NCBI GenBank assembly: GCA_033762255.1
Contig: JANRLT010000008.1
Span: forward strand, 1-64,000
Direction: 5' to 3'
Source: Pirellulales bacterium
GTDB lineage: Bacteria > Planctomycetota > Planctomycetia > Pirellulales > JALHPA01
Length of the DNA stretch: 64,000 nt
Shown: one piece after another, positions 23,201 to 42,935 of the stretch
Numbering within the stretch: the first letter of the stretch is position 1
How the letters are laid out: each line of letters starts with the position of its first letter
Made by a program: the position numbers and the translations under genes
Notes under the pieces: model-generated
What the model was told of the DNA's origin: nothing
The model's input: only the letters and a program-made list of their open reading frames with translations
Databases searched by the model: none

Positions 23201-24728
23201 CTTAACCACCGGCACCACCTATTACTATCGGTTGGCCACCGAGAACGCGTCCGGCGTGTCCACTTATACCGCGACGGCATCGGCCACGCCCGACTTGCCT
23301 CCCCTGATAACCCCCTCCGGCCTGCAGGCGGTGATCCAATCACCCGCGCAAATTTTTCTCTCCTGGATTGATAACAACACAACCGAAACCGGCTACCTGG
23401 TAGAGCGCTCCACCGATGGTGTTAATTTTAACCCGCTGGTTACCCTGCCAGCCAATTCCACCAGTCATCTTGACGGCCAGTTGCAGTCATTTGTTACGTA
23501 CACCTATCGCGTGCGCGCCGTGCGCAATGCCAGCCAGTCGTCCCCGAGCGGCGCGGCCGGCGGCACGCCGACATTAAGCCAGGTTACCGGAACCGCCGTC
23601 GCGGATCTCATCCATATTCGTCGCGCGGGTTCATTGCTGCAGGTATTTGTGAATAGTTCGCTGGCGGGATCACCAACTTATTTCGCCGCTTTGGCCGACG
23701 TACCAGTGTTGCAAATTTTTAGTCTTGGCGGCAATGACATTCTCGAATTGGATGGCGGGGGTCAAGCCCTGTCCACGAATTTTATTTTTGACGGCGGCGC
23801 CGATGCCAATACCCTGGCCGTGTTGACGGGTAGCGTCTCGTTAAACGGGACCGCCAGCGGGGGAATGCTAAACGTGGCGATCTCCGCCAATGCCACGATG
23901 ATCACGGATGGATTGCGGGGGACAACGTTGTCTATCTTGTCGGGCGGAAAGCTGCAAGTTCGTCCCCATGGCGGAGCCGCGGGATTAGTGGTGCTAAATA
24001 ACACGGCTCTCGGCGCCCCCGCGCTCAGCTTGGCCGCGGATGCCATCCTCGATTTAAATGACAATGACCTGGTAGTCTATTACTCGCCCGCCGAAACGCA
24101 AACCTTGGCCACTATCACGGCGGCGTTGGATAATTTTTACAGTTTTGGCCTGGAGGCGGGTCAATCCGTGCCAATTCTGGGCAGCACCACGGTGACAAAC
24201 TCGGGCGGTGGAAGAATCTTGGCCGCGGTGGACAACGTTAATAGCCAATTTGGCGACACGGGAAATCCCTTTTATGATTTAACGCTCGGCAATTCATCCC
24301 TGGGGACCGGCTTTAACCAGGTTGTGGTCCGATTTACCTATCCCGGTGATTACAATCTGGATGGCCAAGTCGATGGCAGTGATTATATTGTGGTGGATTC
24401 GAATCTAGGCGCGGTCACTCCCGGTTTATCCGCCGGGTGGACCCTGGGTGACGGGGACTTTGACGGTATTGTTTCCGCCGCGGATTACTTGCCTATCGAT
24501 TCCAATTTTGGTTCTGGCGTGGGAAACCCCTTGGCGGGTTATCACGCCCATATCGAATCATCAACGTTACCCCCTAGCACGGAGGACGAGGCGAATGAGC
24601 TGCGAAACGAGCTATTTGCCGCAGAGCATGATTGGCTTTATGATCCACGGATTGCCGCCGCATGGGAGCAGTCGGCTGGATTTACAGGAATCAAAAAGCG
24701 GCCGGTCCCCCAACTCTGGGCCATCTAA
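17202..24728 (+). CDS. Giant exported multidomain protein: lamin-tail, CotH-like, PA14, FN3, dockerin
   Basis: 2508 residues. N-terminus: basic leader and LEARHVMA, the planctomycete LEPR-type start of giant exported proteins. Approximate order of domains: lamin-tail (45-165); galactose-binding-like (185-350); chitobiase C-terminal-like (398-467); CotH-kinase-like (510-930, including LRIRGGFSRTPDNPKHAFRL); a second chitobiase-like domain (950-1033); three more lamin-tail domains (from 1034, 1197 and 1346, each opening ITEIHYNP / INEVLT / INEFLS); FN3-like (1523-1610); an Ig-like unit; PA14 (1707-1843); three FN3 (1850-2123); then a C-terminal module with dockerin-like calcium loops (YNLDGQVDGSDY, DGDFDGIVSAADY; about 2381-2443). 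It probably sits on the cell surface and binds or modifies glycans or proteins. CotH kinases phosphorylate spore-coat proteins; activity here is unproven. Confidence 0.85.
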   Translation: MALRNWVNRQSGNHAARTLRRKKSHGARARQFAIETLEARHVMATVVISEFLASSSGGLLDQDGESSDWIELYNTTSSPVNLQNWSLTDNAANLTKWRFPSTIIPANSFLVVFASDKNRAVAGQQLHTNFKLGADGEYLALVEANGTTKASEFTPAFPLQSTNISYGGAFGSTNSTLIGPNAPAKVLIPPNNSLNLTWTNPGFNDAGWLSGATGIGYENDPGSGTSYSGLISLNVANQMYNTRSTAYIRVPFTVANPATVNQLTLRMKYDDGFVAYLNGNSTAIASRQAPATLQYDSAATANRDESLALQYEDIVIPVTPGMLTAGTNMLAIHGLNFTSSSSDFVIQPELVSQSLTYNGTTLNYYTTPTPGAANSGGTTQGSVADTSFSVDRGFFSSPFSLVISSPTVDATIRYTVDGSTPTATTGLVYTAPITISGTTTVRAAAFKTGFVPSNVDTQTYIFVADVVNQSPTGSPPAGWPADRAINNHKFDYGIDPDIKNSALYGPQLQSALQAIPSISLVTDLPNLFDPATGIYVNPGNEGIAWERAASVELLNPDGSDGFQANAGLRIRGGFSRTPDNPKHAFRLFFRSEYGDAKLKFPLFGTAGAAEFDSIDLRTAQNYSWAFQNDGRMTLTRDAYSRLAMRDLGQPYTRGEYYHLYINGVYWGLFQTEERPEANFGATYFGGDESDYDVVKAEAGPYSTVATDGDLVAWQDLWTKVNQIAAEPNATNRFNLYQEIQGLFPNYTPDPSKPVLLDVDNLIDYMLVIFYGGNLDAPISAFLGNTAVNNWFGIRSRDPAARQGFQFLVHDSEHTLLNVNESRIGPYPAGQTFDKSNPQWLHQQLMAEPAYREAFNLRAQQTLRNNGVLTTAANQARHAELVNDLQLAIIGESARWGDVWKGAGESPFTQANFNSAVSEIINNFIPGRTGVLLSQLQGAGLYNSSAPLAPVASLPQGIVAAGTSLSLSNPSFGGTIYYTLNGTDPRNPDGSLNPAALVYSGPLIINDTIQLFSRTRNGSLWSGYTARTYATDTSALRITEIHYNPPAPSLGSPYTADDFEFIELQNTGVTPIDLQGVTIRGDVSYDFAAQTLAPGQFAVLVKNPAAFATLYPSITPWGTFTGVLTNGDGTVDLKNALGNQIVAAGYQDSWYTHTDGGGFSLVINSVATAVDSAAKRIYWRPSQLVNGNPGAVDAGLPLDAVVINEVLTNTTAASGDYIELYNTTNAAINIGGWYLSDAKTNLTKFRIPAGTIIPANDYLLYTQQTHFGNSGNPNALDTFSFTPVSGAAYLTSVDGSGNLAGYREDKDFAGAAAEVSFGRYVKTSGNSDFVQQSAKTPGAVNSGPIIGPIVINEFLSRPAPTQDEYIELRNISAQTVLLYDAAAPANVWTISNAINFSFPVNSSIPAGAYALVVPIDPATFRAKYSIPLSVQIFGPYTGGLNGSGELIRLNRPGAAFGPDIPRISVDHVDYDDNAPWPTEPANGAGKTYSRVTANAYANDYANWGTSRLIFGSPGAANTFSDLSPPTIPANLQAVVGGFGVGVTLTWNTARDFDSGVSGYLVYRNGVLIGNTPYATYIDQTVLPGVNYSYTVAAFNADQYASAPSSAVVVKLLGITGIAETTSTTLVVTFSESLTNAAATTAANYSLAPSINITSATLGGDQRTVTLTLASPLTTGTSYQLMISNVTAISGNILPSGTRVGFTPNLSGGGLRGAYYDELNFINFFANRNDPTINFSWGGIAPIAGMGTDNFSVRWTGAVQPRFSGTYTFYTLSDDGVRLSIDNQSLVDNWTYHGDTENSGSIYLQAGQLYEVKLEFFQGGGGATMALSWAGPNVGKQLIASNRMFTVPAVPASASGLTAMAASTSSVRLDWMDNSNGESQFLIERSTNNLTFAQIGVTAKNTTTYLDTTVTNGATYYYRVRSANVTGSSAPSNTATHTVNYLAPVTPGNLSATPSSTTSISLNWLDLSTNETLFKLQRSVDNINFVHLVNVAPNNTTFEDTGLTTGTTYYYRLATENASGVSTYTATASATPDLPPLITPSGLQAVIQSPAQIFLSWIDNNTTETGYLVERSTDGVNFNPLVTLPANSTSHLDGQLQSFVTYTYRVRAVRNASQSSPSGAAGGTPTLSQVTGTAVADLIHIRRAGSLLQVFVNSSLAGSPTYFAALADVPVLQIFSLGGNDILELDGGGQALSTNFIFDGGADANTLAVLTGSVSLNGTASGGMLNVAISANATMITDGLRGTTLSILSGGKLQVRPHGGAAGLVVLNNTALGAPALSLAADAILDLNDNDLVVYYSPAETQTLATITAALDNFYSFGLEAGQSVPILGSTTVTNSGGGRILAAVDNVNSQFGDTGNPFYDLTLGNSSLGTGFNQVVVRFTYPGDYNLDGQVDGSDYIVVDSNLGAVTPGLSAGWTLGDGDFDGIVSAADYLPIDSNFGSGVGNPLAGYHAHIESSTLPPSTEDEANELRNELFAAEHDWLYDPRIAAAWEQSAGFTGIKKRPVPQLWAI

Positions 24729-27971: not shown

Positions 27972-28079
27972 TGCGGCAAGTAGTTGTTGGCCACATAAAC
28001 TGCATGATGGCGAAAAAGGTCTTGCCGCAAAAATTGCAAGAAAGCGCAAAGAAGGAGCGAGGAACAATAGAGATACTTC

Positions 28080-28175
28080 CTCAATTCTTCTTGTGGGTCA
28101 TAGGCCTAGCCTATCCCAGCCGTGCATATTTCAATTGCGGCAATCGCAGCGTCCCCTCTAGGAAGGGTAAAACTA
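28080..28175 (+). repeat. Dispersed repeat, copy 1 (diverged)
   Basis: The stretch containing TAGCCTATCCCAGCCG and GGCAATCGCAGCGTC resembles the better conserved copy at 43108-43240. It sits in the gap between the BNR gene and the minus-strand cluster. The limits are approximate. Confidence 0.5.
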
Positions 28176-28208
28176 TGCATGCGAAGGGCTGAAAGCCGGA
28201 TTTACACC

Positions 28209-29822
28209 CTACTTCCAACTCGTCGGCACTTCCACCCATGTAGGGGGAGGGGGTTCAACTATTTTTCCATTGGCGTCCACGTTTTCTGGGAATTGTATTC
28301 TGCTAAAGCCCGACAATTTAAGGGAATTCTTGCGACGATCTTCGACCCGCACGATCTCATCTTTAGTCGCATAAGGAATGGTCATCGCCACTAGGATTGT
28401 CCCGCTAGGTTGGACTTTCACTTGCTTTAAGGGACTAGGCTGGGGTTTTTTACCGCCCATTGCGATTTCATAAGCAGCGGACTTTTGCACGTATATGGGG
28501 TATCCTTCAAAAAACCTGACCTTACCCGACTGCTCATCGTAACTCGCTACTTGCTCATAAATATTGTTATCACCATAGGGCTTAATTTGTTGGCGTTGGG
28601 GATAGCCTTCATTAAAAAACACCAATGTGATCGTGCCCACGCGTTCCGTTTCGCCTAACTTTCCGGCCACGGAATCCTCATAACGTTTGATGACAAAAGG
28701 CTCCACTTGTTCTGTTCCAGACGGTCCAGAATACCAACCACTGAACGTACCAGTCACTCCTTTTTCCAATGCCCAGACTTGACAATACTCATCCGGCAAT
28801 TCGCGTCGCTTTCCCAGGATATTGATCCCATCCACAAAAATCGCCACCATCACCCGTTTTGGCGAATCGTTGCGGATACGAATTTTCAAACCTTCGCCAG
28901 GATTGATGGGCAAATAAATAGAGGTGGAATCAAGCGGATTTCCTTTTGCGATAATTGATACTGGCGATTCATTGCTACTGCTTTCATCGCGAATATTTGT
29001 AGCCATTTCAATGGATTGGGGCATAACGCCGACCATCAGTTTTTGAATTTGCCGGTCAACTTCAAATTGAACTTTGTAGGGGCAGTTTGGATTTAAGATC
29101 GCAAAATCCTGGACAGGACTAGCTTTATCGGCATATAGGCCGTATAGCACCAGTGGATCGCTGGGCTTGAGCGCTGTACTTGATGGACCTTTGAAGTGTT
29201 TTCCAAATCCAATCGGTCGCAACACATTCTTATCCCAGCGAAAAAATTCCTGGCTCCGGCCTTGGTAGACTTCCGCCGCTAAGGAATATGGATCCTCGCG
29301 AGAAACTTGGGAAAGCACGCTTTTATTCTTTATCGAAATAGTCTTCCAAATAATATCACGGGTTTGAAATCCCGATCCTGGCTCAAGCGGACGATCCCGG
29401 AATGTGCCAATGACGATTGCTTCCAAGCCCCCCTCAACATGTTTGGCAAGCGCCGTGATTTCCTGGGAAGTCCCAGTGAGGGATTTAATGTCAATCCGTG
29501 CCGATTTTAACGCCACCGCAAGATCTGCCAAATCCACCACTTCAAAATCACCCTGGCTTTGGTTTAGAAGCGATTCTTGCATGTTTTGGCAATAGAGTTC
29601 TCCCAGTTGGCTGGATTTTGCCGTAATTGTGTTTGTCTCTTGCCAAGGGTTGATTTCCTGCTCCAAAACAATTGGCAAGACGCCAATCCGCGTTAACCCT
29701 CTTTCACGCAAGCTTGCCGCAATCTTACCCGCGGATTCCTCTAGCGGCTTTTCTTGGCCATAAGCAACCTGGATGAATACAAAGATAACTACCAAGCTAA
29801 AAATACGAACACAAACAAACAT
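28209..29822 (-). CDS. Exported CsgG/FlgO-like protein with VDG-type C-terminal domain
   Basis: A protein of 537 residues from the ATG at 29822 with AAGAGG upstream; the frame is open 12 codons further. Signal peptide at about 1-24. Residues 40-190 resemble a CsgG/FlgO-like fold (GVLPIVLEQ, GGLEAIVIGTFRD). A domain at about 300-430 contains PGEGLKIRIRNDSP, FVDGINILG, GTFSGWYSG and RVGTITLVFFNEG, shared with the next two exported proteins. It ends in WVEVPTSWK. It is the last gene of the minus-strand cluster, 57 bases after its paralogue. The function is unknown; a cell-envelope role is inferred from the signal peptide. Confidence 0.75.
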   Translation of the reverse strand: MFVCVRIFSLVVIFVFIQVAYGQEKPLEESAGKIAASLRERGLTRIGVLPIVLEQEINPWQETNTITAKSSQLGELYCQNMQESLLNQSQGDFEVVDLADLAVALKSARIDIKSLTGTSQEITALAKHVEGGLEAIVIGTFRDRPLEPGSGFQTRDIIWKTISIKNKSVLSQVSREDPYSLAAEVYQGRSQEFFRWDKNVLRPIGFGKHFKGPSSTALKPSDPLVLYGLYADKASPVQDFAILNPNCPYKVQFEVDRQIQKLMVGVMPQSIEMATNIRDESSSNESPVSIIAKGNPLDSTSIYLPINPGEGLKIRIRNDSPKRVMVAIFVDGINILGKRRELPDEYCQVWALEKGVTGTFSGWYSGPSGTEQVEPFVIKRYEDSVAGKLGETERVGTITLVFFNEGYPQRQQIKPYGDNNIYEQVASYDEQSGKVRFFEGYPIYVQKSAAYEIAMGGKKPQPSPLKQVKVQPSGTILVAMTIPYATKDEIVRVEDRRKNSLKLSGFSRIQFPENVDANGKIVEPPPPTWVEVPTSWK

Positions 29823-29879
29823 GACTGAACCTCTTGTTTGAAAGATTGAATTTGGCACCGATTGATAAAATCACCCACC

Positions 29880-31526
29880 CTACTTCCAACTCGTCGGCAC
29901 TTCCACCCATTCGGTTGACGGCGGAGGAGGAGGCGGGGTTGCCTTTCCATCGGCACCCACCTCCGCCGGAGGAAGGGGAGTTCCAAACCCCGCAAACTGA
30001 TTCAAATTCTTGCGGCGTTCCTCCACTTGCACAATCTCCTCCTTCGTGGCGTAGTTGATCGTCATCGCCGCCAGGATCGTGCCGCTGGCCTGTACTTTTT
30101 GTAACCGGCCCAATGGGCTGGCGACGGGTTTCTTTCCGCCAATGCCCAGTCCCGGATCGCCTGGCTGTGCGCTGGTGGTAATATCCCGCGGTTCGGGAAC
30201 CTCCCCTTCATAGACATGAATTTGCTTGCTTCGGGGATCAAAATAGCTTTCAACCATGTATTGGCGCTCATACGGCGCTATTTGCCGACGCTGGGGCAAC
30301 CCTTCGTTAAAGAAGACCACCGTGATCGTCCCCACCCGGTCCGTCACGCCCAGCTTGGCCGCGATGGAATTTTCAAATCGTGTCACGACAAAGTTTTCAC
30401 GCTGCTCTTTGCCCGCTTCGCCCGTATACCAGCCGCGAAAGCGCCCTTCCTTGCCAGCGTCCAGCGTCCAGATTTTGCACGATTCGTCGGGAATTTCCTT
30501 GTTCTTGCCCAAAATGTTCACGCCATCTACTAGGACTGCCACCAGGACGCGCCGAGGGCTGGTGTTTTTCACATGGATATAAAATTCTTCCCCGGGATTC
30601 AACCGCACATACACGTTGTCCGATCGCAAGCTTTGCCCCAACGGCAACGCGGCTCTTTGGGCTTCGGTTAGTTGCCCTTCCCAGACCCCCACTTTTCCGG
30701 TCATGCGCTGTGGCTCGGGAGAGAGGGGCACGTACAACCCCCGCGGCTGGTCGTCGACCACAATTTCAACCTTATAGGGACAACGGGGATTAAAAATCGG
30801 ATGCGGCTGCGAGTTGTTTTTATCCTCCCGCATCAGGCCGTACAGATCCAAGGGATCGCTGGGCTTGAGGCCAATATCCTTTATCGGAGGCATCGCGTAT
30901 CCAAAGCCAATCGGCCGCAAGACGTTCCCTTCCCAGCGAAAAAACTCGCGACTTAGGCCTTGATACACTTCATCCGCGATGGTGTAGGGCTTTTCCACCA
31001 CATCCTGGGCGACCACGCTATTGTCGGCCGTTTTATACAACTTCCAAATGATATCCCGCGCCTGGTAAAAATTGCGGAAATCATTGGGGTCCATCGGTCG
31101 GTAGCGTATGGTTCCCACGACGAGGCCATCCAGCCCGCCATCAATCCGCTTTACCAATGGTTGAAATTCCCGCGCGCTTCCTTTGAGTTGGCTGACATCC
31201 AATTTCGAATCCGCTAGCCCCGCGGCCATGTCCAAGGTATCCACCACCTGATAATTGCCGCCGCTCGTGTCGAGTAGCAGCCCCTGTAACTGTTCGGTAT
31301 ACAGTTCGCTATGGGGCGTGCGAACAAACTTGGCCGATGTTACGCCAGAAGAATCAGATTCCTGCTGCAGCAAGCAAGGGAACACGCCCACGCGCTGCAA
31401 GTTGGCTTTGAGAATTCCAGCGTTGATTTTGCGTGCTCCGTCGGCGATTTCGGGTTCGGCGGCATGGGTAAGAGCCGGCCAGATGATAACTAAAGCCAAA
31501 CTCATGGACAAAAATCTTGTTGACAT
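29880..31526 (-). CDS. Exported paralogue of the preceding protein
   Basis: A 548-residue protein with AAGGGG before the ATG at 31526 and a signal peptide at 1-22 (cleavage THAAE). It has the same architecture as the protein at 28209-29822: CsgG/FlgO-like N-terminal half (RVGVFPCLLQQES, GGLDGLVVGTIRYRP), DIIWKLY, PCCPYKV-like segment NPRCPYKVEIVVD, then the VDG domain (FYIHVKNTSP, LVDGVNILG, RFRGWYTG, GTITVVFFNEG). The C-terminus VEERRKNLNQF...WVEVPTSWK is near identical to the paralogue. A proline run precedes the tail. It arose by tandem duplication. Confidence 0.75.
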   Translation of the reverse strand: MSTRFLSMSLALVIIWPALTHAAEPEIADGARKINAGILKANLQRVGVFPCLLQQESDSSGVTSAKFVRTPHSELYTEQLQGLLLDTSGGNYQVVDTLDMAAGLADSKLDVSQLKGSAREFQPLVKRIDGGLDGLVVGTIRYRPMDPNDFRNFYQARDIIWKLYKTADNSVVAQDVVEKPYTIADEVYQGLSREFFRWEGNVLRPIGFGYAMPPIKDIGLKPSDPLDLYGLMREDKNNSQPHPIFNPRCPYKVEIVVDDQPRGLYVPLSPEPQRMTGKVGVWEGQLTEAQRAALPLGQSLRSDNVYVRLNPGEEFYIHVKNTSPRRVLVAVLVDGVNILGKNKEIPDESCKIWTLDAGKEGRFRGWYTGEAGKEQRENFVVTRFENSIAAKLGVTDRVGTITVVFFNEGLPQRRQIAPYERQYMVESYFDPRSKQIHVYEGEVPEPRDITTSAQPGDPGLGIGGKKPVASPLGRLQKVQASGTILAAMTINYATKEEIVQVEERRKNLNQFAGFGTPLPPAEVGADGKATPPPPPPSTEWVEVPTSWK

Positions 31527-31730
31527 GCCGACCCCTTTCGAGACTATGATAGCAAGAGTTCAACAGGCACAATGAACAATTCATTCGCGCGCAAGGACTC
31601 TGAGTTAAATTCTCGTTATGTTGATTCGCTATTCGTTTCCTTCCCACACGACCCTTTATTACCGGCGGAATTACATCCACCGCTCGCTTGACCCCTATCC
31701 CCTGACCCCTGTTCTCTCGCCCCTTAGACT

Positions 31731-33425
31731 CTATTCCGCCACTTGATTTTCCATATTCCCCCGCGCCGGCACCGGGCCTAGGCAGACCCGCAGGCCATGA
31801 ATGTTGTACCGCTTGTCCACCGGGGCCGAGGCCACCCGCCCCGCATCACAAAACTCCGCGCTGTCCGTAAACGCCCCGCCCCGGTGAATCCGCTGGTTCG
31901 GCTGATTGGGAGCTTCGTCCAGACACCATTCCGTCACGTTACCCAGCATGTCATAAATCCCCAGCGAACTCCCCCGTAATCGCGCGACCGGCTGGGCGTG
32001 ATAGTCCGCGTTATCGGCAAACCAGGCGATTGGCTCGAGTTGCCGCTCGGTTAACTCCACTCCTCCCCGCTCCAGGCTAATCATCGCCGCGTGGTCCCAT
32101 TCCACGGCCAGGGGCAGGCGATAGGCGTACCCCGCGGGAATTTTCCCTTCCGCTTGCTCAAGCTCCGTCAGCTTCTTGCAAAACGCATCCGCCTCTTCCC
32201 AGGTCACATTTTCCACCGGCAACAATTCCGCGGGATCATCCAGGCCCAATTTTGCCAGTCTGGCGGCCCCTTCGCCACTCGTGGCCCAGTAGCTCGGGTT
32301 TTTGCCAGTCACTTTTTTATACTGAGCCTGGGTGACTTCGGTTTTTCCCAGATAGTATGGCTGGGAAACCCCTTTCCCCGGAGGAATTAGCACCAGCTCC
32401 AAGCCCTGCGTGGTTTTCTCTGTGCGTTGACGTCCTAAATAGCGTGCCCAAGCAGCCTGGGCCTGTTGGACTTTGGTAGGGTTGTAAGGAGCGTCGAGGT
32501 TCGCGGGGCGGGGTGCGCTTTTGCCCAGAACCCAGGGGGTGATTGTGCCGTAGGCGATCGGAATCTGATCCTTGCCATCTTTTTTCCAGACGTAATCCTT
32601 GGTCTCGCGGGCGACGTAATGTGTTAGCTCTGACAGAGTTAGTTGATTTTCAGGATAAAACGCCGCGTCGGCTTCTCCCCGCAAATACTTCAGCACATGG
32701 GCGGTAAAAACACCATGCTGGAGTTCGGGGTATTCGCGGCTGGATTCGGCCTGAGAACAGCTAAACAGAGCGAGCATTCCGCGAGGGACCGTGCGAACGG
32801 CGCGGCCCACCGGCTCTAGCTCGACTTCCTTTCCGCGGCGCTTGGCCTGGGGCTGGGGATCATTGCGGCAAGCATCAACGATCAGCAGCTTACGACCGGC
32901 GGCGCTGGCTTCCAGCACCTTATGCACTAACGAAAGGGATAATAGCGTGTCGCGCTCTTGCAGGCGGGCTTCCTCGGGGCAGAAATAAAGTTCCTGAATG
33001 TCGGAGTCTTGGTCATTATCCGGGGCGGGCTGTTTTTTATCGGCGGCAAATTGAACGCCGTGCCCCATGAATGCCAGTAACAGGGTGTCCTCCGCCGTCA
33101 GGCCCGCGGCGCGATTCTTTAGCACGTCGATGATTTTTTCGGCGGTGTTGGGTTTGAGTTGGGGGAGTTTGGCGTTTTCGGTCATAACAGTTACGTCAAA
33201 CTGCAAGCGGGTCAGTTCCGCGGCCAGGGCTTCGGCATCGTCCACGGCATAGCTAAGCTGGTTAAGCTCGTCGGGGTCGTACTTTTCCACGCCAATGATC
33301 ACGGCGTATTTTTTGCCCAGTTCCTGGGCGGGAAGGGATTCAGTAATTACCCAGCCGTGCGAGAGAAAAACCACCAGTAAAGAGGCGATTTTCCAGGACA
33401 ATAATTTTTGGGGCAGTATTCGCAT
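31731..33425 (-). CDS. Exported caspase-like domain fused to FGE-like domain
   Basis: A protein of 564 residues from the ATG at 33425 (MRILPQKLLSW); the 104 codons upstream in frame look non-coding. Signal peptide at 1-34. The caspase-like domain at about 36-310 has His122 (FMGHGVQF) and Cys186 (LLIVDACRND). From about 322 there is a formylglycine-generating-enzyme-like domain (LIPPGKGVSQ, KTEVTQAQYKKVTGKNPSYW, VENVTWEEADAFC, DMLGNVTEWCLDEAP, HRGGAF). In true FGE two cysteines bind copper; here only the second is kept (SAEFCDAGR), so the domain is probably a binding module. The caspase part is a paralogue of the one at 1948-4128. Confidence 0.88.
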   Translation of the reverse strand: MRILPQKLLSWKIASLLVVFLSHGWVITESLPAQELGKKYAVIIGVEKYDPDELNQLSYAVDDAEALAAELTRLQFDVTVMTENAKLPQLKPNTAEKIIDVLKNRAAGLTAEDTLLLAFMGHGVQFAADKKQPAPDNDQDSDIQELYFCPEEARLQERDTLLSLSLVHKVLEASAAGRKLLIVDACRNDPQPQAKRRGKEVELEPVGRAVRTVPRGMLALFSCSQAESSREYPELQHGVFTAHVLKYLRGEADAAFYPENQLTLSELTHYVARETKDYVWKKDGKDQIPIAYGTITPWVLGKSAPRPANLDAPYNPTKVQQAQAAWARYLGRQRTEKTTQGLELVLIPPGKGVSQPYYLGKTEVTQAQYKKVTGKNPSYWATSGEGAARLAKLGLDDPAELLPVENVTWEEADAFCKKLTELEQAEGKIPAGYAYRLPLAVEWDHAAMISLERGGVELTERQLEPIAWFADNADYHAQPVARLRGSSLGIYDMLGNVTEWCLDEAPNQPNQRIHRGGAFTDSAEFCDAGRVASAPVDKRYNIHGLRVCLGPVPARGNMENQVAE

Positions 33426-33540
33426 GGAATGAAGCGGAATTATTAAACGGATCACTGCCAACGGTAGTTCGCAGTATAAAGTCTGTTCATAATCTTGGCT
33501 AGAAAATCTTTTCCGGAATATTGCCAAAGATTGCCCGCCT

Positions 33541-34662
33541 TTACTCTCCTGGCCGGTTGTACCGTACGCTGACGACGCTGCGGGGACGGCCGATGACCCG
33601 CTTGACGGGCACCCAGTTTTGGCCAGTTTTTTCGCCGATACCGGTCGCGGTGTCCGCGCCGCGGGTGCTTGTCTCATCGCCGGGGGCCTGGTCCTCGGGC
33701 TTCCAGGTCGCCGCAAACGTGGCGGTGATGACGCCAATGCTGCTCGTGGGGATCCCTTTTTTACCCGCCGCGCTGTCGGGGTAACTGGTCAATAAGAACG
33801 CCCTGGTGTCGTTATCGTCAAAGTACCAGCCGGTCACATCCACATGCTTGCCGGGGGGGACGATGACCTGGCTGCCAAAATTTCCTTTGCTGCTAAAGCT
33901 AAACATCGACAGCCCGTCCACCGTGACCAGGACGGCGGCTTCGTGGGGACTCCGATTGTACAACCGTACAATGTACTCTTCCCCTTTGTGCAGGGGGACA
34001 AACGCCCGCCCACTGGTTAATGTCGGCTGGCGGGAAGAGAGATCCGCCCCATCTTTGGTGAGGATTTCGATCCCAAATTCGCTCCCGGGAGCCGCCCGTA
34101 CTTCGTTTTTGACAATGGTGGCCGCGGGGTTTTTTAGGGCGTTATTTTGCTTTTCACGACGCTCGTCGGCATTGGCGTTGGCGGGAAGATCAACCGTGCC
34201 GCCGGTAATCTGCAACGCCGCCGCGCCAAACACGCTGATATTGAACTTATCCAGATCGCGGTCGTTTTCATCCAAAAGCTGTGCTTTGACCAACAGGCCT
34301 ATTTCTCCCTCAAACCGCTGTTCTTGGTCGGAGTTGGCAAACGAGCCAATCAATTGCAGTTTTGCATCATCGCGCACGTCGATTTTTTGGCTTTTGAGCG
34401 CGTTAATGACCAGTTGCCGCACGCCGGTTCCGCCGCTGGTCTTGAGCCGCGGAGGGGCCGTAAAATCCCCCACGATAACCGCGGTCTCGTTGTATTCCGT
34501 CAGTAGTTTCCCGACGTGTTTGGCGATCCGCTGGGCCGCTTCCTCCAACCGGTTAAAGCCGATATCCTCAACCTCGGCCGCCGCGACGGGTTGCCATTGC
34601 ATTCCGTATGCCAAGCACGCGCTGCAAACCAGCATGAGCAATTGTTTGAATGATGGGGACAT
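33541..34662 (-). CDS. Exported protein with CsgG/FlgO-like and VDG-type domains
   Basis: A 373-residue protein with CAAGG upstream and a signal peptide at 1-28 (cleavage near VAAAE). The N-terminal part (AVIVGDFTAPPRLKTSGG, LQLIGSFANSDQEQRF) resembles CsgG/FlgO-like envelope proteins. The C-terminal domain (EEYIVRLYNRSP, VTVDGLSMFSF, VTGWYFDDNDTRAF, SSIGVITATFA) matches the VDG domain of the two tandem paralogues nearby. It stands 115 bases upstream of the caspase-FGE gene and is probably in the same transcription unit. Confidence 0.72.
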   Translation of the reverse strand: MSPSFKQLLMLVCSACLAYGMQWQPVAAAEVEDIGFNRLEEAAQRIAKHVGKLLTEYNETAVIVGDFTAPPRLKTSGGTGVRQLVINALKSQKIDVRDDAKLQLIGSFANSDQEQRFEGEIGLLVKAQLLDENDRDLDKFNISVFGAAALQITGGTVDLPANANADERREKQNNALKNPAATIVKNEVRAAPGSEFGIEILTKDGADLSSRQPTLTSGRAFVPLHKGEEYIVRLYNRSPHEAAVLVTVDGLSMFSFSSKGNFGSQVIVPPGKHVDVTGWYFDDNDTRAFLLTSYPDSAAGKKGIPTSSIGVITATFAATWKPEDQAPGDETSTRGADTATGIGEKTGQNWVPVKRVIGRPRSVVSVRYNRPGE

Positions 34663-34864
34663 GGGAAACCTTGTTTGTGATGAATCAGTTATCGGTGGCA
34701 GTGTGAAGTCGTTCAGTTTTCAGATTGAAGTGACAGTTGTGCGGACATGTCTATGATGGAAAACGCACGTTCAACATAAATCTTCCATCTTGCATTTCTT
34801 ACTCTTTTTGCTTTTTTTGTTGTTCTTGCGGCTAAACTCCCAACATGCTTTCCTGATGGCATCC

Positions 34865-36649
34865 TCAATTTCCAAAGTGGACCGGCACGCCCAATCGCAG
34901 CACCCGCGCGGTGCGATGATAGGCTTTTTCCCACATCGAGCGGGGAACAACTTCGCCGCGGGTGATTGGTTCCAAACCGGCGTTCTGCAAGGCCGCGTTC
35001 AGTTTTAATTGCGATTTTAGATCCGCGACCGTGGGAATGTTGTGTTCCGCGGCGGTCGCGTCATCGGCGGGAAGCAATAACTCGCGGGCGATGTCGTCAA
35101 ATGTCAACTTGCGGTCGTAATGGCGGCTGACATGCGTGATCGGTTCGGGAAAGTCGATCGCCGAGCGTTTATCCTCGGGTGATGTCCGCAAAAACTGCAA
35201 GGTCGCCTTATCGAGTCCCAGTTGGTACCGTTCGCTATCCTCCCGGCGATAGCGTTCCATCACCTCGGCCACGGGAAAGATTTTGAGCACCTTATCGGCC
35301 ACGGATTCTCCCTGGCGATTGACATATCCTTCCCGCAACGTGTCGGTAAAGGGGATAAAACCCTGGCGGTGGCAGCCAAAGCAGGAGATGCCATTGAGGA
35401 TTTTATTTGATCCAGAAAACTGCTGGGGATCGCGGACGATATTGATCGGCCCCTCGTTTAAAACCGCCCCCTGGTCCGTGGCCAAATAAAAAGCCAGCAG
35501 GCCATTCGGCAGATGAAAAATCACCTCGCCCCCATCGTGCTTAAACGCCGCGCGGGAGGGTTTTTCCGGGTCGATTGGCCCTAACGGCTTGATAAAAAAG
35601 TCCACATCCCCCCCATCGGTTGCATTGTCAAAGCTGTCCCAATACGCGCCGTACTTGGCTTCTTGCCGCTGCACCATCCGCGAGTTATCGCTGACGCCGC
35701 TTTCGCGAAACGCCGCCCGGGCGGTGCGGTCGCGCTCCAGATTCTCCCGGGCATTTACCCCCAGCTCTTCTTCCAGGGCTTTTTGGCTTTGCGGTAAACC
35801 CAAAAGGGCATAGTACAGCGCGGGACGGGCGGCGTTGTAGACAAACCAATCGGCCCGCACATAGGGCAGGTCGGACTGTGCCAGGTCATACACTTTTTTG
35901 GCGGCGGGACTGCCGCGACTCAGTCCATAAGGGTAGCCCCCGGTGGTGTCGTCACCGCCGATCAGCAAGTTCCAGCGGTTCCCCTTGTCCCAGCCATAAT
36001 CACGCAAGTCAATCGCCAAAAGCAACCCATCCGCATCGACCACGCGGGGGGGAGTGATCCGGACTTGTTTTGACAGGCTATTGATCAGTTTGCTTACCGC
36101 GGCGCGGACCAAGCGCAAATCATGGTCGCTGGCCGCGGGATTATTCCACAGATGCAAGAGGGTAAAATAGCGAGTAAATTGCCGATGCTCGGCGGGAACT
36201 TTTTCCAGGTCGGCGGCCAACGCTGCTAAAATCGTATCTTCCCCTTTGTAGGGACGGGCGGGACGATCCGCCGCTGGAAATTCCGCCCCCGCAGCGATCC
36301 ATTTGCCAATCAGTTCTTTCTCCGCGGCGGTTGGCTGGGGCTGGTCCTCGGGAGGCATCCGCTCGGCGCTATCGGTGGCGGTCAGCCGCTGAAAAATCCG
36401 CGATGCCGCCGCGTCCCCCGGAACCAAAAACGGCTTTTCATCTTTGCTTTTAGGTTCAATCAGCGTCGCCCGGTCTAAAATATCCAAGCTAGGATAGGCA
36501 AAATCGGTCCCATGGCATTCGTAGCAATACTTACGCAAGAGCGCCGTGGCTTGCTCCGCCTCTCCGGCGTTCAGGGGATTGGCCAGGACAACGATGGCAA
36601 CAAACGCCATACCCAGGGCAACAAGCGTTTTCATGATCCGCTTTCTCAT
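34865..36649 (-). CDS. PSCyt1-type exported cytochrome c
   Basis: About 594 residues; start candidates are the ATGs at 36673, 36661, 36649 and 36634, and 36649 gives the best signal peptide (MRKRIMKTLVALG). Two haem-binding CxxCH motifs are seen: CYECHG near residue 40 in a planctomycete PSCyt1 domain (MPPEDQPQPTAAEKELIGKW), and CFGCHRQGF near residue 400. The middle region is helical, with no catalytic motif recognised. In planctomycetes such cytochromes often belong to large PSD1/PSCyt gene pairs; here the PSD1-like partner is not present. It is the first gene of the minus-strand block. Confidence 0.82.
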   Translation of the reverse strand: MRKRIMKTLVALGMAFVAIVVLANPLNAGEAEQATALLRKYCYECHGTDFAYPSLDILDRATLIEPKSKDEKPFLVPGDAAASRIFQRLTATDSAERMPPEDQPQPTAAEKELIGKWIAAGAEFPAADRPARPYKGEDTILAALAADLEKVPAEHRQFTRYFTLLHLWNNPAASDHDLRLVRAAVSKLINSLSKQVRITPPRVVDADGLLLAIDLRDYGWDKGNRWNLLIGGDDTTGGYPYGLSRGSPAAKKVYDLAQSDLPYVRADWFVYNAARPALYYALLGLPQSQKALEEELGVNARENLERDRTARAAFRESGVSDNSRMVQRQEAKYGAYWDSFDNATDGGDVDFFIKPLGPIDPEKPSRAAFKHDGGEVIFHLPNGLLAFYLATDQGAVLNEGPINIVRDPQQFSGSNKILNGISCFGCHRQGFIPFTDTLREGYVNRQGESVADKVLKIFPVAEVMERYRREDSERYQLGLDKATLQFLRTSPEDKRSAIDFPEPITHVSRHYDRKLTFDDIARELLLPADDATAAEHNIPTVADLKSQLKLNAALQNAGLEPITRGEVVPRSMWEKAYHRTARVLRLGVPVHFGN

Positions 36650-36673
36650 GGAGGTAAACATGATTTGTCTCAA

Positions 36674-36981
36674 GTCACGGCAAAATGGGAGGTGTCTCGC
36701 CTGTGTGGCTTATTTTAACCAGCAAGCGGGGGATACTCCAAGATTTCTTCAGGGGAGACCTGTCCAAAAACCCTGGAGTCCTAAAAAACGCATAAAATTG
36801 CGTTCACATTGGCAAACGGAGGCGTCCGCCAATTCTTCCCCCGGTGGCGTAAAAAATTAATTGGAATTGAGGGGGAAGAATGGCTTCCCCCGTTCGTTGA
36901 CACTACTGGATAGCCAGTTTGTTACCGATTCACCGTAAAAGTCACTTGACTCCCCGCGTGGAATGGCGACAAACTGGTGTC
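36674..36981. promoter_or_regulatory. Divergent promoter region with hairpin, cytochrome / sigma factor
   Basis: A perfect hairpin GGGGGAAG-aatgg-CTTCCCCC at 36871-36891 is followed directly by TTGACA at 36897-36902. The best -10 at a 17-base spacing, TGTTAC (36920-36925), is weak. It could serve the sigma-factor gene. The whole gap is 300 bases between genes read in opposite directions. Confidence 0.3.
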
Positions 36982-37503
36982 ATGCACGCCGAAACACCAA
37001 ATTGGGAAAGCCTTTACGACGAACACGCCCCTTCCCTGCTGCGCTGGCTGGGGTCAAAGGTCGGCCGTGACCAGGCGGAGGACTGTTTGCAGGAAATATG
37101 GCTGAAGGCCGTGGAAAAAGGATTTCCGGGGGGCCATTTTCGCGGTTGGATTTTTACCTTGGCGCGAAATTTTGTAATCGATCGCTCCCGTAGCGCCGCC
37201 TACAAATTATCGCGGATGACCACGCCCGGCAGTCATCCAGGAGAGGATGGCAAACCGTGGGAACCCCCAGATCAATCCGAATCGTCAGAGGATAGCTCTG
37301 ATCTACTGGAATTGCTGTCGCGGTTGCGCGGATGCCTGGAAAAGCTGGACACGGATAAGGCCGCCGTGGTGCGGGGCTGGTTGAATGACTTGCCCTACAA
37401 ACAATTGGCCCTGGAATTACAAATGGAAGCGTCGCAGATTTCAAAACGCTTTGACACCGCCAAAAACCAACTGCGGCGCTGCCTGCGGGAGGAAACCCCA
37501 TGA
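36982..37503 (+). CDS. RNA polymerase sigma factor, ECF-type
   Basis: A protein of 173 residues from the ATG at 36982. Region 2 motifs are DQAEDCLQEIWLKAVEK and FRGWIFTLARNFVIDR; region 4 has LPYKQLALELQMEASQISKR with a helix-turn-helix. The linker is acidic. The stop overlaps the start of the next gene (ATGA), so the two are translationally coupled. This is typical of a sigma factor and its antagonist. The targets are unknown; the divergent caspase cluster is a candidate. Confidence 0.9.
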   Translation: MHAETPNWESLYDEHAPSLLRWLGSKVGRDQAEDCLQEIWLKAVEKGFPGGHFRGWIFTLARNFVIDRSRSAAYKLSRMTTPGSHPGEDGKPWEPPDQSESSEDSSDLLELLSRLRGCLEKLDTDKAAVVRGWLNDLPYKQLALELQMEASQISKRFDTAKNQLRRCLREETP

Positions 37504-38507
37504 ACGCCCGTATTTTAGAGATCCCCAGCGAACCAGCGGACATTGCCGACTGGTTGGCCCGGGAACTAGTCGGCCCCGGACTGCCGCAACTGGCGCGGGA
37601 ACTGCAAACAATTCACGGCGGGACAACTACCACCGCCACCGACGAAGAACTTTATCAATGGCTGGGCGGGGACAAAGCGATCCTGTTGGAACAAGGACTT
37701 ACCGCTGTTTCGACGGATAAACAGAAACAACTTTTAGGCAGGCCGGAACTATTGGTCCCGCTCCAGGAATTGATTTTAATTGAAGGGGGCCAAATTTGGG
37801 AAAGACTGTTAGCCGCCGAACCGGACGTCGCTAGCGCTAGCCAGCGAGTTAAGAAAAAACTACAACTTCACAATCCCTTGTTTGCCGCGGGTAATTCCGG
37901 ATCAACAGATATCCAGCGCCCCTCTTCCCTCCCCCCCCATATCAATTGGCGCTACTTGTGGACGGCGGTGGCGGTGGCGGCGTCGATTTTGGTGCTAAGC
38001 TTGTGGATTCCCCAGGGAAACCCTCCCCTCCCCCAACCGACCTGGGGCTGGCATGGCCCGGATTTGCTTTCGCAAAAATTGCCTCCGGCGGAATACTTGC
38101 AAACCTTGGCCAAGGCGGGTGACGCCTGGTTTAACAAGCGGCCCGACTCGACCGTCACGCTTAAGCAGCGAATTGTAGAAATGCGCAGCGGCTGCGACCG
38201 GCTCATTGTCGCCGAACATCCGCAATTGCCCCCTGTCGAGCGGGATTGGTTGCGGGAAAAATGTAAACTCTGGCGGGATAAATTTGACGCTCAACTGGCC
38301 GCGTTAGATAAAGGGACGGCCAGGGAAAAAGTCCAAGCGGAAATGGACGACATTGTTAAAAAGCTGGTGACCGCCCTGAATTCACGGGCGGAGGAATATA
38401 AAATGCGCGCGGGCATTTCAGCACGGCAGCCGGAATCGCCCGCAGGATATTTCCCGGGCAACGCGGTAGCGCGTATCAAACGATCACCAACGGGGATGAC
38501 CGGTTAA
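37500..38507 (+). CDS. Putative membrane-anchored anti-sigma factor
   Basis: A 335-residue protein with a cytoplasmic N-terminal part (residues 1-145), one membrane helix at about 150-168 (YLWTAVAVAASILVLSLWI) and a large outer domain rich in charged helices (EKVQAEMDDIVKKLVTAL). There is no visible zinc-binding HxxxCxxC motif. The assignment rests on coupling to the sigma gene (ATGA overlap), the single membrane pass and the inside-outside layout. It may sense an envelope signal. The sequence itself matches no family I recognise. Confidence 0.55.
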   Translation: MNARILEIPSEPADIADWLARELVGPGLPQLARELQTIHGGTTTTATDEELYQWLGGDKAILLEQGLTAVSTDKQKQLLGRPELLVPLQELILIEGGQIWERLLAAEPDVASASQRVKKKLQLHNPLFAAGNSGSTDIQRPSSLPPHINWRYLWTAVAVAASILVLSLWIPQGNPPLPQPTWGWHGPDLLSQKLPPAEYLQTLAKAGDAWFNKRPDSTVTLKQRIVEMRSGCDRLIVAEHPQLPPVERDWLREKCKLWRDKFDAQLAALDKGTAREKVQAEMDDIVKKLVTALNSRAEEYKMRAGISARQPESPAGYFPGNAVARIKRSPTGMTG

Positions 38508-38514
38508 TCACCGG

Positions 38515-40893
38515 TTATACTACAACCGGCATCCAGGCCAAAACCACCTTATTCACGGTAATGTCGGCTTTCTTGGGCGTTAGGCACAGTTCCTCCAGCG
38601 GTAGCTTATCCGCCTGCACGGTATTTTCAATCTTCTCGCATTCAAGCTTAAATTCTTGATTCATTTCCTCAAACCGGGCGTTTAGCGCTTCTACCGTTTC
38701 TTCGGCATGGCCCACGTCGGCCTGCTGGCTGAGTGCCCGGCTGGCGGCCCGCGCGCCCGTGGCGGCGCGGCCAACATTCGCCGAGCTGGCTAGTTTGCGG
38801 CCAAAGACCGACCCGATCACCGAGGAACCAATCGTGATCACTGATTGAATGACCGTGCCGCGGGCTTGTTCTTTTTCCTTGGCCACTTTTTGTTCGGCCT
38901 TGCGAATCTGCTCCTTGAGCGCGGTCATCTTGGGGGAGTACTTTTGGCGCAGCTTTTCCAGTTCGGTGTCGCGCAGTTCGCGCGCGGCCTGGGACAAGCG
39001 GATGCGAAACTCCGCTTGCGATTCCCCCGGTTGGGAGACAATTTTCAGTTTGGCATATTTCCACAGGGGGAGCCGTTTGGTTCGATACAGGGAATCGCGC
39101 AGATCGCTGGCAAAACCCTCGTAGGCTTTCGCTTTGCAAAGCGCGGCGGGAAGCGTGGCAAACCGCGCGCCATCCTCAGGTCCGCTATCTAGATCGACTC
39201 CTGCCTCGGTCATATCCTCGGCGGAGGTCCAAACTTCGTCGGTCAACTTGCCATCCACCGGAACCAGGAATGTCACGTTTTCACTATGGTCAATCCCCTG
39301 CGCCGCATTTTGATAATGAACCTTGGCCGTGCCATACAGCGCCGGGCGATACTCCACGCCCTTCCCGGCTGGCTTTGCGGCGCGGCGGGCGATAAAGACT
39401 TCTTCGATTCCAGGGGGAAGAACCGGGCGACTGGCGGAATCCGCCATTTTTTGCACGGTCTCGGTCGCGGCCGCGCCATCCCGCAAGGGAGCCATCAACG
39501 TGCGGATCTGCTCGCTGGAAATTGGCCCCCGCAAGTACGACAACGCCCAGCGTGTTTGCAGCACGACCGGGGCATCCTCGTGCACGTTATTCATCAGGAA
39601 CACTCTATTCCCTAGGCTAGAAAGCGTTTTTTCCAGCTCCGCCCGGTCAAACGCTGCTCCCGCGGCGGTCGAGGCCCCCTCCAATCCGTCTAGCACCCGC
39701 AGCTTGTCCCGCTCGGTCTGCAATCTGCCCAGAAACCACGTCCCGCAGTTGGATAACCCCTTGTAATCCAAATCCACCGGGTTTTGCGTCGCCAACACCA
39801 CGCCCAGGCCGAACGCGCGGGCCTGCTTTAGCAGCGTCAGCATGGGCGTCTTGCTAGGTGGATTGGCGGTAGGGGGAAAATAGCCAAAAACCTCATCCAT
39901 GTACAAAATCGCCCGCAGGCTGGTGGTACCGGTCTGGGCTCGCATCCAGGCGATGACCGCGTTGAGGACGATCGTGACAAAAAACATCCGTTCCGCGTCG
40001 CTCAGATGCGCGATGGATAAAATGACATGCCGCGGCTTGCCCGTGGAGGTGTAGAGCAACTTTTGGATATCCAAGGGAGCGCCGGTCAGCCAAGTCTGAA
40101 AGCCGGGTGACGCCAGCAAATTATTGAGCGCCATGGCCAGGGTAAAGCGGTCCTTTTGCGGGAAGAAGCTTTCCAGGTCTAAAAAGCCAAGCTTGTCAAA
40201 CGGCGGGGTTTGAATCTCGCGAATAAGTTCGCCTAATGCGACATCCTTGCCCTCTTGCCAAGCCCGCTCGAGCAACGTGGCCAACAAGATAAATTCGCGG
40301 CTGCGCAGGGGATCCCCTTCGATTTGCAAGAGCGCCAACAACCCCGCCACGGCGCTGTTAATTTGTTCGCGCAAGGCGTCCGGTTGTTCGCGGATAGCGG
40401 CGGCGGGGGCGGCAAACGACTTCAGCACAGTGAGCGGCAGTCCCGCGTTACTGCCCGGGGTATAAATCGCTACTTCCACCGCGTCGCGGAATTTTTGAAT
40501 GCGCTCGGGAGGTTGGTCCCAGTCCCCCAAGCCTTTTTTCCATCGCGCCGCGACATCCGTGGCGTATTCCTCGACTGATTTTCCCTGCCGCGTCGCTTCG
40601 CCCGGATCGATCCAGGGTTGAAAATCAGTGGGGCGAAGCTGGGGAAACGTCAGACACAAGTTGGCAATATCTCCCTTTGGATCGATGATGATCGCCGGGA
40701 TTCCGTCAATGGCCGCTTCTTCGAGTAATGCCAGGCACAGCCCCGTTTTACCGCTGCCGGTCATACCCACGCAGAGTGCGTGCGTGACCAAATCCTTGGC
40801 GTCATAGAGCAGGTATTCGGACCGTGTTTTACCGCTGGCCAGATCGTAGGGCTTGCCCAAATAAAATTGGCCGAGGACTTCGTAGTCGGACAT
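38515..40893 (-). CDS. HerA/FtsK-like ATPase (helicase HerA-like, DUF87 type)
   Basis: A 792-residue protein with Walker A GMTGSGKT at residues 43-50, IIIDPKGDIANL just after, Walker B AILYMDEVFGYFP near 330 and the sensor segment VVLATQNPVDLDYKGLSNCG. The C-terminal part has a coiled coil (about 630-690; LEKLRQKYSPKMTALKEQIR) and a Gly/Ala-rich stretch. HerA-like ATPases translocate DNA, sometimes with NurA; no nuclease gene is adjacent. It ends seven bases from the sigma/anti-sigma pair, convergently. No membrane helix is seen. Confidence 0.85.
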   Translation of the reverse strand: MSDYEVLGQFYLGKPYDLASGKTRSEYLLYDAKDLVTHALCVGMTGSGKTGLCLALLEEAAIDGIPAIIIDPKGDIANLCLTFPQLRPTDFQPWIDPGEATRQGKSVEEYATDVAARWKKGLGDWDQPPERIQKFRDAVEVAIYTPGSNAGLPLTVLKSFAAPAAAIREQPDALREQINSAVAGLLALLQIEGDPLRSREFILLATLLERAWQEGKDVALGELIREIQTPPFDKLGFLDLESFFPQKDRFTLAMALNNLLASPGFQTWLTGAPLDIQKLLYTSTGKPRHVILSIAHLSDAERMFFVTIVLNAVIAWMRAQTGTTSLRAILYMDEVFGYFPPTANPPSKTPMLTLLKQARAFGLGVVLATQNPVDLDYKGLSNCGTWFLGRLQTERDKLRVLDGLEGASTAAGAAFDRAELEKTLSSLGNRVFLMNNVHEDAPVVLQTRWALSYLRGPISSEQIRTLMAPLRDGAAATETVQKMADSASRPVLPPGIEEVFIARRAAKPAGKGVEYRPALYGTAKVHYQNAAQGIDHSENVTFLVPVDGKLTDEVWTSAEDMTEAGVDLDSGPEDGARFATLPAALCKAKAYEGFASDLRDSLYRTKRLPLWKYAKLKIVSQPGESQAEFRIRLSQAARELRDTELEKLRQKYSPKMTALKEQIRKAEQKVAKEKEQARGTVIQSVITIGSSVIGSVFGRKLASSANVGRAATGARAASRALSQQADVGHAEETVEALNARFEEMNQEFKLECEKIENTVQADKLPLEELCLTPKKADITVNKVVLAWMPVVV

Positions 40894-42724: not shown

Positions 42725-42752
42725 GGCGGGATGTTGCAGGGGCGAGGGGGTG

Positions 42753-42935
42753 GTGGATAGTGGGTAGGGGATAGTGGGTAGGGGATAGTGGTTGGTGGGT
42801 AGTGGTTGGTGGGTAGTGGTTGGTGGGTAGTGGTTGGTGGGTAGTGGTTGGTGGGTAGTGGTTGGTGGGTAGTGGTTGGTGGGTAGTGGGTAGTGGGTAG
42901 TGGGTAGTGGGTAGTGGGTAGTGGGTAGTGGGTAG
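42753..42935 (+). repeat. 7/14-base G-rich minisatellite
   Basis: About seven copies of the 14-base unit GGTTGGTGGGTAGT are followed by about eight copies of the 7-base unit GGGTAGT. A few irregular units (GGGTAGGGGATAGT) lie on the left. The unit is not a multiple of three and lacks stops on the minus strand, so several frames stay open through it. The G clusters could form quadruplexes. It begins just upstream of the start codon at 42724. Confidence 0.9.

Follow-up and report, generated by a model that had tools for sequence, protein, structure and literature searches.

The window analyzed here, 64 kb in length, is the first part of a 188.7-kb contig (C8) from the draft genome of a Pirellulales bacterium (5.47 Mb in total), and it carries a cluster of seven genes that includes an apparently exported caspase. 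In the order in which they are read on the minus strand, five of them encode a c-type cytochrome (E), a protein with a C-terminal domain referred to as VDG (D), a caspase fused to an FGE domain (caspase-FGE) and two further VDG proteins (B and A); the other two, on the plus strand, encode a sigma factor of the extracytoplasmic function (ECF) type and a membrane protein (TM), and their genes overlap by 4 bp (Table 1). An open reading frame (ORF) check of the window recovered all seven genes, including the coupled sigma/TM pair, where a preliminary description of the locus had placed them. Start codons were corrected by inspection: A begins at the ATG that follows the listed GTG, E has the limits given in Table 1, and the start of caspase-FGE was moved to an ATG because the listed one (33737) overlaps D. 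The five minus-strand products had been said to carry export signals, which is borne out at the level of hydrophobicity: their N-termini contain a signal-like segment with Kyte-Doolittle 12-mer maxima of 2.2-2.9, the same measure giving -0.3 for the sigma factor and 0.3 for a neighboring ATPase. A promoter and terminator scan of positions 28000-38700 found site numbers no higher than in shuffled sequences. As judged from gene content in other genomes, the conserved unit consists of E, one adaptor of the D type (family V) and an exported clan-CD protease, often accompanied by an ECF sigma factor paired with a single-pass membrane protein.

Table 1. Features of the caspase-FGE locus (positions in the 64-kb window)
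Feature	Position	Strand	Description
A	28209..29822	-	exported V-family paralogue (predicted): N-half putatively CsgG-like, VDG half Ig-like, extension at the C-terminus that ends in WVEVPTSWK
B	29880..31526	-	exported V-family paralogue (predicted), tandem duplicate of A
caspase-FGE	31731..33425	-	predicted exported Peptidase_C14, dyad GHG / DACRN, fused to an FGE/C-type-lectin-like domain
D (core adaptor V)	33541..34662	-	signal peptide; LpoB/TolB-N/CsgG-like residues 37-146; Ig-like VDG residues 185-373
E	34865..36649	-	predicted exported diheme c-type cytochrome: PSCyt1/class I domain and second haem domain
E-sigma divergent intergenic region	36650..36981	.	promoters expected here from the layout
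ECF-type sigma factor	36982..37503	+	TTG 36919 in the ORF listing; ATG 36982 likelier
TM	37500..38507	+	single-pass membrane protein, putative anti-sigma factor, translationally coupled to sigma

The linkage between these genes was assessed in surveys of 392 planctomycete genomes, mostly drafts in which several loci are cut by contig ends, with the best three to five candidates per genome scored. A D profile has matches in at least 16 of the 392 genomes (best four candidates per genome), and nearly all full-length D homologues adjoin caspase genes, often also E. A caspase gene lies within 10 kb in 8 of the 10 full-length V loci, where 0.11 would be expected from per-genome Pfam caspase counts (raised by one where a local profile found a caspase missed by Pfam); this expected value, like the one given below for TM, assumes random gene placement and independent genomes, which do not hold, and it indicates scale only. 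In an E-anchored survey, a scan of GTDB contigs with E yielded 80 loci, on which local profile searches were run: V directly follows E on the same strand for 36 of 87 E genes, and 23 of these 36 pairs continue to a caspase gene on that strand. The E-locus counts are not fully independent, since L018/L038 and L061/L062 are the same or near-identical, and loci chosen through E over-represent E, a bias from which the V- and TM-anchored counts are free; some of the loci used to build the V profile had, however, been found via homology to A and B. Altogether, the genes form a linked set, as had been supposed from their layout, and this set is encountered in several orders and families of Planctomycetota, not in close relatives alone. 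Its core is not the one initially put forward, namely caspase-FGE with three VDG partners and a cytochrome treated as incidental: homologue searches found the A/B tandem in this genome only, FGE is one of several protease partners, and E is the most constant neighbor of VDG proteins in the class Planctomycetia. The nearest genome with E, V and caspase-FGE side by side (G274) belongs to the same taxonomic order, and the three genes lie there on a 4,709-bp contig.

A and B are tandem paralogues, as previously noted, with 45% identity along their whole length. D is shorter, and its BLAST similarity to A and B is confined to its second half; profile comparison identifies the VDG halves of A/B and D as homologous (hhalign probability 99.4%), in agreement with the common C-terminal domain proposed for the three proteins. 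Sequence searches of Pfam, NCBIfam and the PDB gave no usable match for A, B or D. In the AlphaFold2 model of D (mean pLDDT 85.3, 33-sequence alignment), the N-terminal half is closest to the C-terminal domain of LpoB (VIA-align, Z 11.0, 2.5 Å over 99 residues), followed by LptE, PelC, TolB and CsgG, and the C-terminal half is predicted to be an immunoglobulin (Ig)-like sandwich, with unspecific structural matches at about Z 6. By sequence profile (hhalign), the N-terminal half of D matches neither LpoB nor CsgG, those of A and B match weakly (CsgG, 60% probability; LpoB, 40%), and no homology is detected between the N-terminal halves of A/B and D. The CsgG/FlgO-like half attributed to all three proteins thus holds for D, by fold, and is suggested for A and B by the weak CsgG match. 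D resembles the periplasmic LpoB/CsgG/TolB-N superfamily in the fold of its N-terminal half and differs from it in being joined to an Ig-like VDG domain and in having a signal that resembles the signal peptidase I type, not that of lipoproteins. With this LpoB-like plus Ig-like architecture, V is a family without a Pfam or NCBIfam model. The possibility that VDG is a form of DUF4384, a caspase-associated domain, was rejected (hhalign probability 4.7% against seven DUF4384-region sequences).

Within caspase-FGE, Pfam recognizes a Peptidase_C14 domain (5e-21), which scores 75.9 bits against a curated cut-off of 21.4, and an FGE-sulfatase domain (1.5e-23). Catalytic FGE, exemplified by SUMF1, has an active-site cysteine pair in an RGG(S)...CxxxxC motif; the FGE domain of the window caspase, RGGAFTDSAEFC, contains one of these two cysteines only, and among solved structures it comes closest to TvpA and PorK/GldK and not to catalytic FGE. 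The closest of them, TvpA (2.7e-15), is a Treponema variable protein. In alignment with homologues, the catalytic His-Cys dyad of the caspase domain is intact. The same holds for 55 of the 61 caspase matches at V loci, and fragments account for several of the other six; for planctomycete metacaspases, an intact dyad is reported in 64% (PMC3501461). The genome encodes other proteins of this kind: a second exported caspase-type protein of 726 aa (1948-4128, plus strand) lies 30 kb away in the window with no E or V beside it, its C14 domain being 52% identical to that of caspase-FGE over 290 residues, and two further caspase-FGE-like genes are found on contigs C21 and C46.

The protease encoded next to E and V takes several forms. 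FGE-fused caspases are present in the window and in L041, L077, L147, L148, L151 and L230; WD40-fused caspases are present in L043 and L152, where Pfam recognizes both domains, and in L016, L050, L145 and L146, where WD40 Pfam matches or repeats go together with the local caspase profile; the caspase of L150 is fused to ankyrin repeats. Of these loci, L043 comes from Singulisphaera acidiphila DSM 18658 and L077 from Neorhodopirellula pilleata Pla100, both of them culturable. CHAT peptidases belong to clan CD, as caspases do, and L222, L228 and L224 encode TPR-CHAT proteins, no caspase match being found at these three loci. The protease slot is exchangeable within clan CD, with caspase-FGE, caspase-WD40, caspase-ankyrin and TPR-CHAT as occupants. 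In the CHAT proteins of L222 (3570-7715, minus strand) and L228 (2110-6195, minus strand), TPR repeats are apparently inserted between the STHGFF and SACETG motifs, and Pfam reports the CHAT domain as two stretches. Caspase genes are locally multiplied around the module, with six in L100 and four in L061, mostly FGE-fused, as if effectors had been amplified there.

E matches PSCyt1 (Pfam, 1.1e-9) and has a second CxxCH haem motif, overlooked in the preliminary description; both motifs are invariant in 42 homologues, alphaproteobacterial ones included. In the model of E (pLDDT 92.8), a class I cytochrome c/PSCyt1 domain (residues 23-125, P0005), related by sequence to FoxE (2.9e-13), precedes a beta-rich second haem domain (approximately residues 282-464, CxxCH at 420-424), and the region beyond the PSCyt1 domain is without a Pfam or NCBIfam model. 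The best structural matches of the second domain, at modest scores, are cytochrome c'-beta/P460 proteins (7ead, Z 6.0, 3.3 Å over 102 residues; 7s5o, Z 5.5; 6amg, Z 4.4). The likeness would lie in the beta-sheet haem domain and in a near-C-terminal CxxCH that falls within the aligned region; the differences are the modest score, the lack of profile support and the class I cytochrome domain that precedes the haem domain in E. A P460 identity by sequence was considered and is unsupported, the hhalign alignment covering the CxxCH region only.

The contexts in which E occurs bear on its role. In L043 and L145, E sits behind a Ser/Thr kinase domain (Pfam), with a hydrophobic segment between the two in L043, and the E protein of L045 is probably kinase-fused too, given its like length; no TM family match is found at these three loci. 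At Rhizobium-type loci V is absent, and E is accompanied by DUF4384, an OmpA protein and two caspases; Afipia and Gemmatales loci contain E without V or caspase. The latter loci, the relationship to FoxE and a possible fold of the P460/c'-beta type, known from enzymes and from NO binders, would fit an E that acts as an enzyme or electron carrier (NO/hydroxylamine or peroxide turnover, FoxE-like iron oxidation), with caspase and V serving its maturation or quality control and not as the output of a signal. We consider such a role unlikely: the fusion of E to a Ser/Thr kinase and its co-inheritance with sigma/TM are more sensor-like than enzyme-like, and the protease type varies while E stays. 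E is a likely haem sensor.

The sigma factor belongs to the ECF type, with matches to TIGR02937 over residues 30-189 (55.4 bits, cut-off 42.9), to Pfam Sigma70_r2 (37.5 bits) and to sigma70-ECF (5.5e-15). TM has no usable match in Pfam, NCBIfam or PDB sequence searches; an alignment of five orthologues displays a cytosolic N-terminal half, a transmembrane helix at about residues 157-175 and an extracytoplasmic C-terminal half, and we regard TM as a putative anti-sigma factor. A profile derived from five module loci detects the TM family in 12 of the 392 planctomycete genomes. Sigma directly precedes TM in L063, L088, L146, L152, L222-L224 and L227-L230, and L231 has a partial TM match with no sigma, E, V or caspase match. 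The divergence of sigma/TM and the E cluster in the window, together with the V-protease pairs that lack sigma/TM (L147-L151), might suggest that the pair and the exported protease cluster are independent, separately regulated units abutting by chance. Such a coincidence is highly improbable: eight genomes have TM together with full-length E, and in 7 of these 8 the distance from TM to an E gene is below 7 kb, with 0.02 expected, the exception being G274, where TM is on a separate 4.2-kb contig. The sequences of the TM profile came partly from three of these eight genomes (G000, G121 and G362), so that independent support comes from G351, G238, G334 and G291. Furthermore, in L146 and L152 TM points in the same direction as E-V-caspase, and sigma, TM and caspase-FGE follow one another on one strand in L230. 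The sigma/TM pair thus belongs with the exported cluster, as first suggested from its position.

We propose, with about even confidence, that the locus exemplifies an extracytoplasmic module for signaling and proteolysis that is conserved in planctomycetes. The co-conservation of E, V and a clan-CD protease, often with sigma/TM, is read directly from the gene neighborhoods, and the following mechanism is inferred. Periplasmic E would sense a redox or haem-ligand signal (electron flow, NO or peroxide), while the V adaptor would anchor the protease at the envelope and present targets to it, and the protease would owe its binding specificity to its FGE (C-type-lectin-like) or WD40 domain. The signal would cross the membrane either via the Ser/Thr kinase fused to E or via TM acting as an anti-sigma factor; to judge from the three fusion loci, the fused kinase and the separate sigma/TM pair appear to be interchangeable outputs. 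Sigma would then turn on the E-V-protease genes, and probably others, and the protease would cut envelope or extracellular proteins, possibly TM itself, so that the outcome would be a stress response or a self-limiting death response.

Several observations weigh against the signaling and proteolysis module. No caspase is present in the sequence examined at V loci L015, L019-L021, L042, L053, L058, L094 and L154-L156, and V outside Planctomycetia often occurs without E (L149-L151), which indicates that the module is modular, not obligate. The structural scores of the second E domain against c'-beta/P460 are modest and the Foldseek E-value is not significant, and hhalign against Pfam P460 members aligns 12 columns around CxxCH only, so that this resemblance is a lead only. 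In addition, Pfam recognizes none of the known anti-sigma domains in TM, and export was judged from hydrophobicity, not with a trained predictor.

Parts of the gene set have counterparts in known systems. Caspase-FGE and caspase-WD40 proteins, as well as sigma-70 factors in Myxococcus metacaspase operons, are already known (PMC3501461). Metacaspase (orthocaspase) operons share with the module the His-Cys caspase domain, the FGE or WD40 partner and a sigma factor nearby; however, the text of that survey mentions neither cytochrome nor CsgG, and in the present module the cytochrome and the adaptor look exported along with the protease, while the sigma factor has a membrane protein as its partner. 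The caspase conflict systems EACC1 and EACC2, some of which include ECF sigma factors (PMC7159879, PMC8195603), likewise have a caspase that stays constant next to a sensor or effector domain that varies, an FGE-type domain and an ECF sigma factor in the neighborhood. The window caspase scores 73.3 bits with the EACC1-associated caspase model, below its cut-off of 140, and the module differs from these systems in that no TRADD-N/EACC2 or NTPase was seen in it, its proteins look exported and a diheme cytochrome is present. Since caspase, CHAT, WD40 and FGE are domains typically encountered in predicted conflict systems (PMC7159879, PMC8195603) and caspases are multiplied beside the module in L061, L073 and L100, one could envisage a regulated cell death or anti-phage module, in which the exported caspase becomes active upon a signal of stress or of an invader and the cell is killed or lysed. 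We find this improbable: a PADLOC scan gives single generic caspase and HerA matches and no system, the module is without an NTPase switch, and its proteins look exported, secretion not being ascribed to the caspase conflict systems described so far.

The module also recalls the animal apoptosome (cytochrome c, Apaf-1 WD40, caspase), in that a c-type cytochrome, WD40 propellers (at many loci) and a caspase are encoded side by side. It differs from the apoptosome in location and in the direct fusion of WD40 to the caspase, WD40 being absent from the window copy, and no NTPase, hence no STAND/AP-ATPase switch, was recognized by Pfam in the seven window proteins or in the module proteins scanned from other loci. 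The resemblance is likely an analogy, not homology. Within the proposed module, a still bolder and quite unlikely variant is that the cytochrome directly controls the caspase: a haem or redox change in E would be relayed by V to activate the exported caspase, in many species also via the WD40 propeller of the protease, with the anti-sigma protein among the substrates. If true, the circuit would be analogous in function to the triggering of caspases by cytochrome c.

Other features surround the cluster. A HerA/FtsK-like ATPase gene (38515-40893, minus strand) adjoins the TM gene; it gives weak PADLOC mad8 and HerA matches, and no other defence genes were recognized beside it. A 2508-aa protein with lamin-tail, CotH kinase, PA14 and fn3 domains is encoded at 17202-24728 (plus strand). 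Positions 42751-42931 contain 12.9 copies of a 14-bp unit, TGGTGGGTAGTGGT, with 95% matches, and a DUF6798 ORF has this array at its 5' end; the start of this ORF is probably downstream of the array, since the listed ORF translates the array as PTTHYPLPT repeats.

The system had been thought not to be described, and we found no description of it, in particular none joining PSCyt1 with a caspase, in a literature that covers subscription journals little and in which an earlier one is possible. The gene set made up of E, V, protease and sigma/TM is widespread and apparently undescribed. For bacterial caspases, little is known of what they cut and of what triggers them. In this recurrent set the protease is exchangeable and the diheme cytochrome constant, the adaptors form a defined family, and a sigma/membrane switch is dedicated to the module; these are partners that can be tested directly, with a probable type of signal and transcription as the read-out, in planctomycetes that can be cultured.

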